From the NCBI GenBank assembly GCA_016176295.1, contig JACOXN010000010.1, positions 1 through 50,833 on the forward strand: a stretch of DNA of 50,833 nt, written 5' to 3'. Shown here one piece after another: positions 24,895 through 26,497 of the stretch. The stretch is from Candidatus Giovannonibacteria bacterium. Lineage in GTDB: Bacteria; Patescibacteriota; Minisyncoccia; UBA11713; 2-01-FULL-45-33. A program made the position numbers and the translations under genes. The notes under the pieces are model-generated. The model saw nothing but the letters and a program-made list of their open reading frames with translations. It was not told where the DNA came from and did no database searches. How positions within the stretch are numbered: position 1 is the stretch's first letter; every line of letters begins with the position of its first letter.

Positions 24895-26049
24895 ATGAAA
24901 TTTAGGAAAATAATTCCGGCGCTTCTTTTTTTTCCGATCGTGATTTTTGCCCAGGATGCTGGCACGTCGGACCCTAAGCAGGCACCCGACCCTGTCGGCG
25001 GCAGCGTAATTGAAGCGCCTCCGGAGGCGGCTTCCGCGGCCGCACCGGCAGCCACGGGCAGTGCCGTTGGGACTCCGAGAGACCCCGGCTCTTTGCCGGA
25101 GGGCGCAAGCAACCCCGCTTCTCCCGGGCCGGCAGTTCCCTCCATAGTAAGGCCGACCACTCCAAGCGTCACGCCAACGGCCATACTTTCACCGACACCG
25201 TCAACAGCTTCAGACAATGAGACTCCGCCGGAAGAAAATAACCGGGTTCTTTACGGAATTTTAGGCACGATCGGCGCCCTGGCTTTAATTTTTGGCGCGA
25301 CTAATTTTTTGCGTAAGCGCACGCAAAAACAAAATAATCAAAAGAACGATGAAAACTGCGACAGCATCCGGGAACTTCTCCGAAAAAAACAAAAAGAACT
25401 TGTGGAGTCGGCTAAAAACTGGCCCAAAGACAAATTGAAAGCGGTCTTAAAGGAAAAGGCTCTCGGACTGCTTACGGACGAGCAGAAAAAAATGCTAAAA
25501 CAGGCGGAGGAAGCAAAAGAAAAATTCGATAAATTAAAGGCAGACGTCGAATTACTGCAGAATAAATTCGACCTCTGCATGCTAAAACTTCCTTCAAAAA
25601 ATGAGCTCATTTTCAAAAAAGCGGAGGCTACCGATGAGGACATAAAAAAATATTTGGAGGTGGAAAAAACCGCCATCGGCCAGAAAACTTACTCCGGTAT
25701 CTCCGACCCGGGCGAAGCGAAAAAAGAAATGCGGACAAATGAAGTATTTTTTATTTTTAAAAACGGCAAGCTGGCGGGCACTTGCCAATACGAATTAAAA
25801 ACTCCTGATTGCGCGTATTTAAGCGGAATTGTTATAATTCCAGATTTCCAGGGACAGGGGATTGCGAGGAAAGCGGCGGATTTCCGTCTGAAAAAATTGA
25901 AATACATGAAGCGCATTGAAGTCGCTACCCACCCGGATAACGCCAAAATGCTTCATATATATGTATCACTTGGCTTTAAAGTCGAATCACGGCGGGAAAA
26001 TTATTACGGCGACGGCGAGCCGAGGATGCTGCTTGTTCTCAGGAGATAA
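24895..26049 (+). CDS. Membrane-anchored protein: extracytoplasmic Pro/Thr-rich segment, TM, coiled coil, C-terminal GNAT acetyltransferase
   Basis: Signal MKFRKIIPALLFFPIVIFA, TM VLYGILGTIGALALIFGATNFL, coiled coil, GNAT core LSGIVIIPDFQGQGIARKAADF ... MLHIYVSLGFKV. Confidence 0.8.
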   Translation: MKFRKIIPALLFFPIVIFAQDAGTSDPKQAPDPVGGSVIEAPPEAASAAAPAATGSAVGTPRDPGSLPEGASNPASPGPAVPSIVRPTTPSVTPTAILSPTPSTASDNETPPEENNRVLYGILGTIGALALIFGATNFLRKRTQKQNNQKNDENCDSIRELLRKKQKELVESAKNWPKDKLKAVLKEKALGLLTDEQKKMLKQAEEAKEKFDKLKADVELLQNKFDLCMLKLPSKNELIFKKAEATDEDIKKYLEVEKTAIGQKTYSGISDPGEAKKEMRTNEVFFIFKNGKLAGTCQYELKTPDCAYLSGIVIIPDFQGQGIARKAADFRLKKLKYMKRIEVATHPDNAKMLHIYVSLGFKVESRRENYYGDGEPRMLLVLRR

Positions 26050-26080: not shown

Positions 26081-26110
26081 AAAAAAATACCGCCCTTTTT
26101 ACTGGACGGC
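26081..26110 (-). terminator. Intrinsic terminator of ncRNA
   Basis: Minus GCCGTCCagtaaaaaGGGCGGTATTTTTTT. Confidence 0.75.
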
Positions 26111-26358
26111 TTAAAATTGGTTGCGGTTCCTCCGCACATCCTTACGGCTATGCTTCGCGGGAACCGCATTGGCCCGCCTACCACAGCGGTTGTTTTACAG
26201 AGCACTCGACGAGGTAACCCTCGCGCCTTCTCTGCGCTGCCCGTAGCATCGGCGCATCCTTGAACCCGGCGGGTATAAAGATGCTTGGACCTTATCTGAC
26301 GGTCTGGGTTTCACCCTCTCGACAATTTTGGTTATATATTTGTCTTTCGGCAGGCTCT
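26081..26358 (-). ncRNA. Standalone structured non-coding RNA of unknown family
   Basis: Minus-strand promoter TTGAAT-17-TACTTT, dense nested hairpins, closing stem AAAATTG/CAATTTT, intrinsic terminator; no supported ORF. Confidence 0.6.
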
Positions 26359-26364
26359 GAAATT

Positions 26365-26393
26365 AAAGTATCACATTGACACCCGACATTCAA
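26365..26393 (-). promoter_or_regulatory. Promoter for structured ncRNA
   Basis: Minus TTGAAT (26393-26388), 17-nt spacer, TGA-TACTTT (-10 at 26370-26365). Confidence 0.5.
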
Positions 26394-26497
26394 ACCTACT
26401 GGACATACAAAATTTTATATGATATAGTTGGTTCTTACCGAGTTTAGAAACTAGTCGAGTTTTCCGAGTTGGGTAAATTTAATAGAAAAACAATCAT

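Follow-up and report, generated by a model that had tools for sequence, protein, structure and literature searches.

The window, the whole stretch of 50,833 nucleotides analysed here, contains a separate gene for an RNA that is almost certainly a homologue of domain II of bacterial 23S rRNA. In this miniature RNA the domain II derivative is reduced to a module closed by H36 (H36, H39, H40, H41 and H45) plus H46, and the helices are maintained by compensatory changes despite an identity of 59-71% to any 23S examined. The RNA is probably functional rather than debris and, with chances close to even, it may be a free decoy or storage RNA for ribosomal proteins, for bL20 and perhaps for bL21 and uL13. 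The source genome (G000; 828 kb, 85% complete) is that of the sole sampled species of its genus. The locus lies outside any rRNA gene or operon, between a converging gene for a GNAT-domain protein and a diverging gene for a cold-shock protein (csp), and the 16S gene is located on a different contig. The features of the predicted RNA are collected in Table 1.

Table 1. Predicted features of the miniature RNA and its flanks, in window positions.
Feature	Position	Strand	Basis or remark
Possible -35 element TTGAAT	26388..26393	-	4/6 to consensus; weak
Possible extended -10 element TGA-TACTTT	26365..26370	-	3/6 to consensus plus TGn; weak
Predicted RNA, ~276 nt, miniature 23S domain II	26083..26358	-	Fold z, RF02541 match
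H36 5' strand GCCTGCC (E. coli 23S ~812-817), then GAAAG as in 23S	26349..26355	-	Pairs with 26178-26172
Junction, H37-H38 (A-site finger) missing	26344..26348	-	H36-H40 spacing
H39 GACAA..AUAA..UUGUC	26321..26344	-	Rfam LSU alignment; GACAA/TTGTC pair probability 0.93
H40 hairpin GGGTGAAACCC	26306..26316	-	Aligned with 23S GGGAAACAACCC
H41	26241..26302	-	Contains near-invariant CCCAGACCGTCAGATAAGGTCC, on 5' side
H41 basal CCGT-AG/CT-ACGG	26302-26296 / 26246-26241	-	100% paired, 11 sequences
H41 distal GCATCTTT/AAGGATGC	26284-26277 / 26261-26254	-	
15 nt ATACCCGCCGGGTTC, 4-bp hairpin, replacing H42-H44 (GTPase-associated centre)	26262..26276	-	23S alignment
H45, base GCAGCG/CGCTGT, enlarged	26183..26240	-	23S alignment
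H45 tip insertion, 46 nt, new arm CAGAG..CGAGG-GTTA-CCTCG..CTCTG	26189-26234	-	
H36 3' strand GGCGGGC, preceded by conserved GGTA(G)	26172..26178	-	Pairs with 5' strand
H46, conserved GAAG..GCCGTAAGG..GGAGG	26122..26168	-	7 pairs, 96% of cells paired
Intrinsic terminator, stem GCCGTCC/GGGCGGT then T7	26089..26110	-	Terminator scan

The earlier note on this DNA had described a densely structured standalone RNA with a canonical terminator and no supported ORF, and this description was borne out. No curated ORF overlaps 26081-26393, a terminator scan recovers the stem at 26110-26089 together with its T-run, and the fold of 26083-26358 reaches -107.5 kcal/mol, while dinucleotide shuffles give -84.0 +/- 4.8 (z = -4.95), the shorter span 26083-26350 also being more stable than its shuffles (z = -4.12). 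Every helix that the note had listed is present in the sequence where it was placed. The 7-bp stem AAAATTG/CAATTTT, which had been taken to bracket the fold, does exist but is outcompeted in the full-length fold, where GCCTGCC/GGCGGGC (26355-26349/26178-26172) plus GACAA/TTGTC (26344-26340/26325-26321), corresponding to H36 and H39, are preferred. This stem served as the closing stem in our first covariance model of the miniature RNA; as the native closure it was rejected, and H36 and H39 probably close the fold instead. The proposed promoter, TTGAAT-17-TACTTT with a TGn extension, is visible by eye but agrees with the consensus at 7 of 12 positions and fails a promoter scan, and as promoter evidence these motifs are weak. 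The RNA start at ~26358 was deduced from the promoter position plus H36, and the start expected from the promoter coincides exactly with the beginning of the H36 strand.

The miniature RNA reaches the curated gathering cut-off of no family in an Rfam scan. When the scan was confined to 261 bases, RF02541 (LSU_rRNA_bacteria) matched 26113-26360 over model positions 971-1295 with 41.8 bits, which is sub-threshold since the gathering score is 50. In the earlier note, a confident match in Rfam to some known class was named as what would refute a new family; such a match was thereby obtained in part, with E = 1.2e-11 yet below the gathering score. RF02541 is absent at the gathering cut-off and from a scan of 701 bases, and the weak matches of the latter scan (E <= 5) to mir-7386 and a snoRNA were regarded as chance. 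A 23S-only profile, built from ten 23S genes of other classes after excision of the GTPase centre, the miniature RNA being left out, was searched with nhmmer against the whole source genome, where the miniature RNA is the sole significant match (E = 7.8e-13); a second match, inside ileS (L070), was attributed to chance. A single-sequence covariance model, run against 380 genomes of the phylum, found 16 places in 15 genomes, the miniature RNA itself included. The other 15 are all in genuine 23S genes, at domain II, several with E from 3.7e-10 to 1.6e-4. The best non-self match in a DNA search is 22/24 to a 23S gene, and the sole credible match corresponds to H40-H41 of 23S.

The likeness to a domain II segment that the earlier note had pointed out was thus the right lead, with homology confirmed, whereas its statement that the rest does not follow 23S does not hold, as the whole RNA follows 23S helix by helix once three indels are allowed. 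It had left the choice between a new family and a divergent known one: divergence stands, the RNA being a free-standing and rearranged descendant of 23S domain II and not one of unknown ancestry. With respect to LSU rRNA (RF02541), homology of both sequence and helices was found at a score under the gathering score, and H42-H44, the A-site finger H38 and a location in an rrn operon are all lacking. To file the miniature RNA as an LSU rRNA gene would be wrong, since it is without functional parts that define one.

Three other RNA classes were considered and rejected. RNase P RNA (RF00010) is encoded at G000:C4 and tmRNA (RF00023) on contig C2; the miniature RNA gives no match to the former, ARAGORN finds no tmRNA there, and the presence of both elsewhere agrees with the earlier note, which had found no signature of either. 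The miniature RNA does not match the SRP RNA model (RF00169) either, a test that says little specific to it since no match at E <= 1 was found in any of ten family genomes (G000 and G001-G009), though most control bacteria give one. In these genomes SRP RNA is either lost or very diverged.

The order from 5' to 3' is the H36 5' strand, H39, H40, the 5' side of H41, the 15-nt replacement, the 3' side of H41 (CCGATGCTACGG), H45 with its extra arm, GGTA-GGCGGG with the H36 3' strand, H46 and the terminator. The transcript start CCTGCC-GAAAG corresponds to CTCCCC-GAAAG in E. coli. H36 and H40 are separated by 37 nt in the miniature RNA and by 160-164 nt in 23S, and the replacement at the tip of H41 stands in for H42-H44, which measure 119-137 nt in the aligned 23S genes. 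Removal of H37-38 and H42-44 is in register and leaves closed helices behind. Of the sites bound by bL20, the second, H25, is missing, and the enlarged H45 arm has a counterpart in none of ten aligned 23S genes. The RNA thus shares with 23S domain II the helices H36, H39, H40, H41, H45 and H46 and the stretches CCCAGACCG-CAG-UAAGGUCC, CCGA-GCU-CGG, GGUAG and GAAG/GGAGG, but differs in having its own gene and terminator outside rrn, in missing H37-H38 and H42-H44 and in the enlargement of H45.

The degree of constraint on the helices was assessed by comparing the miniature RNA with 23S genes. The 35 pairs of H40, H41, H45 and H46 are paired in 95.7% of cells across the miniature RNA and ten 23S genes, 28 of them change on both sides, and their covariation score is 0.795 versus 0.231 for shuffled data and at most 0.148 with the partners slid. 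These counts were taken from alignment A4, which was fitted to the miniature-RNA model, MAFFT having misplaced H45; most weight is carried by the tests of H36 and basal H41, which are independent of the pairs in the fitted model. Basal H41, which is not in the alignment model, is fully paired in all 11 sequences and five of its six pairs changed on both sides. In H46 all seven pairs change on both sides across the sequences. H36 (CCTGCC/GGCGGG) keeps six of six pairs, two of which are changed on both sides relative to 17 23S genes: the second pair is C-G in the miniature RNA and U-A in all 17, E. coli among them, and the fourth is G-C in the miniature RNA and C-G or U-A in the 17.

These results bear on the alternative that the RNA is no longer functional, being either a 23S fragment transposed or duplicated from a different lineage or a pseudogene of long standing, with pairs inherited from a functional ancestor. 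Such an origin as debris is unlikely, though it would agree with the occurrence in one genome only, with the weak promoter and with the fact that H45 is a known 23S insertion site, at which the family 23S L154 carries a long insertion. It is difficult to reconcile with two large arms excised in register with closed helices, with the presence of a terminator and with an H36 in which every pair is kept by means of base pairs found in 0/17 23S genes. Furthermore, free drift from any sampled 23S would be expected to leave 8-11 of 17 well-aligned pairs intact, and all 17 are (P <= 5e-5); alone this is no proof of function, because pairs would equally be intact in an RNA copied recently from an unsampled 23S. 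No sampled 23S is closer to the miniature RNA than 71%, which also argues against debris.

Over three alignable pieces the identity is 65-71% to the 23S of other families and of E. coli. Two 23S genes from the family itself reach 59-60%, and these share 85% with each other. Since the own-family genes are the most distant, these identities make it unlikely that the RNA was copied recently from the organism's own 23S, and it may stem from an old duplication or from transfer from an unsampled lineage. Relatives were sought by blastn and none was found in the family (nine others), in the class (384 genomes), in phages or in plasmids. The miniature-RNA model likewise found no relative in the class and, in the phylum (380 genomes), only 23S genes. 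The csp-flanking loci of five relatives do not contain the miniature RNA, which is known from one incomplete genome and was seen in none of ~760 other sampled genomes of the phylum. Exact patterns of the 23S-like start gave zero matches in viral contigs, and their strict form zero in genome contigs; a looser form matched 46 genome stretches, about the chance expectation and scattered over unrelated bacteria. Patterns requiring that the GTPase centre be absent gave coding-region matches only, by chance. One IMG/VR match (L160, IMGVR_UViG_2775507074_000001) is an ordinary 23S and not a relative; it looks gammaproteobacterial, and the "viral" contig is probably a misclassified bacterial one.

The assembly contains a 16S gene, and the organism's own 23S was not found in it. 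One may ask on this ground if the miniature RNA could be one part of a split 23S and replace, in ribosomes, a domain that is missing from the main 23S, the more so as the family 23S L155 (G006:C26) is apparently without H45 and the 3' side of H41. This is very unlikely, as the RNA lacks both the A-site finger and the GTPase-associated centre, on which factor binding depends, and an ordinary domain II including the GTPase centre is found in the 23S genes of two relatives (G003 and G007).

The A-site finger and the GTPase centre contact tRNA, 5S rRNA and translation factors. The H40/H41 junction is bound by bL20, and bL21 and uL13 make contacts nearby (PMC6962249, PMC2672003). In the miniature RNA this junction, the putative bL20 site, is conserved. 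Binding of bL20 in trans is proposed because the protein-binding body stays while the arms contacting tRNA, 5S rRNA and factors are gone, and because mimicry by leader mRNAs offers a precedent. We infer that the RNA is transcribed independently as a free molecule of ~276 nt that would act in trans, and that its retained body would bind free bL20, perhaps also bL21 and uL13, as a decoy or store. Bound protein would be taken from the free pool, by which the supply of ribosomal proteins for 50S assembly would be adjusted, in what would be a trans version of the rRNA mimicry known from bL20 leader mRNAs. An independent, trans-acting mini-domain II that forms an RNP with bL20 and its neighbours and controls either ribosomal-protein supply or 50S assembly is accordingly put forward as a tentative model, to which we give somewhat less than an even chance. 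Both rplT and a bL21 gene are present in the source genome. A tblastn search of this 85% complete assembly gave no uL13 gene, which, like the lack of H25, the weak promoter and the occurrence in a single species, counts against the proposal. A 23S-like leader was looked for at infC-rpmI-rplT and none was seen.

Mimicry of H40/H41 by bL20 leaders could also suggest that the RNA itself regulates in cis as a leader, in the manner of a bL20-type attenuator. Gene order largely refutes this, since the RNA ends at a terminator and the downstream gene is convergent; infC, rpmI and rplT, upstream of which such a leader would be placed, are on a different contig, no Rfam leader matches, and the probability of this alternative is close to nil. 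A role as decoy or scaffold for another partner, such as a 50S assembly factor, an H45-processing RNase or an rRNA-directed nuclease or toxin, is less remote, albeit improbable. The new H45 arm, without counterpart in the ten aligned 23S genes, would in that case supply the specificity, and intervening sequences in the 23S of other bacteria are cut by RNase III (PMC11270868). No gene for such a partner adjoins the miniature RNA. We know of no factor that requires exactly the H36-closed module.

To our knowledge, no trans-encoded rRNA mimic derived from rRNA itself has been reported earlier, and a literature search, the incomplete coverage of which makes it no proof, found no free-standing RNA or mimic derived from 23S domain II. 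Known rRNA mimicry resides in mRNA leaders, to which ribosomal proteins bind in cis. In other bacteria, bL20 controls its own operon by way of leader mRNAs that copy the H40/H41 junction (Guillier et al. 2002, 2005, as summarized in PMC6962249 and PMC10931766). The miniature RNA resembles them as an extraribosomal RNA presenting a bL20 site, putative in its case, but the leaders are short cis sites in mRNA (rpmI-rplT or infC), whereas the miniature RNA would act in trans, is descended from 23S and contains six 23S helices. In its proposed action it would be analogous to CsrB/C, GlmY and 6S RNA, free RNAs that occupy a protein; these sRNAs are, however, not descended from rRNA, and for the miniature RNA the binding is a proposal. 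Fragmented or IVS-containing 23S rRNAs likewise consist of 23S pieces and have insertions in H45, but they belong to one rRNA gene or together make up a full ribosome, while the miniature RNA is without essential arms. By mode of action it is rRNA mimicry, and by ancestry and architecture a new variant of it. If the proposal is true, rRNA domains can exit the ribosome and turn into regulators, and a natural, minimal, self-folding domain II would be at hand for assembly and structural work. Such fragments fall below the Rfam LSU cut-off and risk being taken for new RNA families, so that a systematic survey, outside rrn operons, of LSU and SSU pieces that score under the threshold would be worthwhile.

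Some further observations were made on the rRNA genes of the family. The 16S gene of the source genome is interrupted by a group I intron. In L155 (G006:C26, contamination 4%), at ~1040-1400, the GTPase centre runs almost directly into H46, and the part that seems to be lacking corresponds to E. coli ~1112-1195; either the 23S is reduced in an unusual way or the contig is foreign or chimeric. The family 23S genes L154 (G007:C12), L157 (G003:C9), L158 (G004:C8) and L159 (G005:C12) are interrupted by insertions several hundred bases long, one example lying after E. coli ~1931, and the additional insertion in H45 of L154 is ~100 nt long.

The neighbouring genes show features of their own. The protein encoded at window 24895-26049 has, by eye, a signal peptide, a proline-rich stretch, a transmembrane segment and a coiled coil, with a GNAT acetyltransferase domain fused on at the C-terminus, an unusual, membrane-anchored architecture. 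In the csp 5' UTR (window 26430-26497; L026-L030) an element (A)GTCGAGTTT is kept in six of the six family genomes with csp and is a possible cold-shock leader motif. Elsewhere in the source genome, a stretch inserted into the isoleucyl-tRNA synthetase (L070:11859-15299, G000:C17) has a histidine-phosphatase-like motif, YIIMRHGQAENN.
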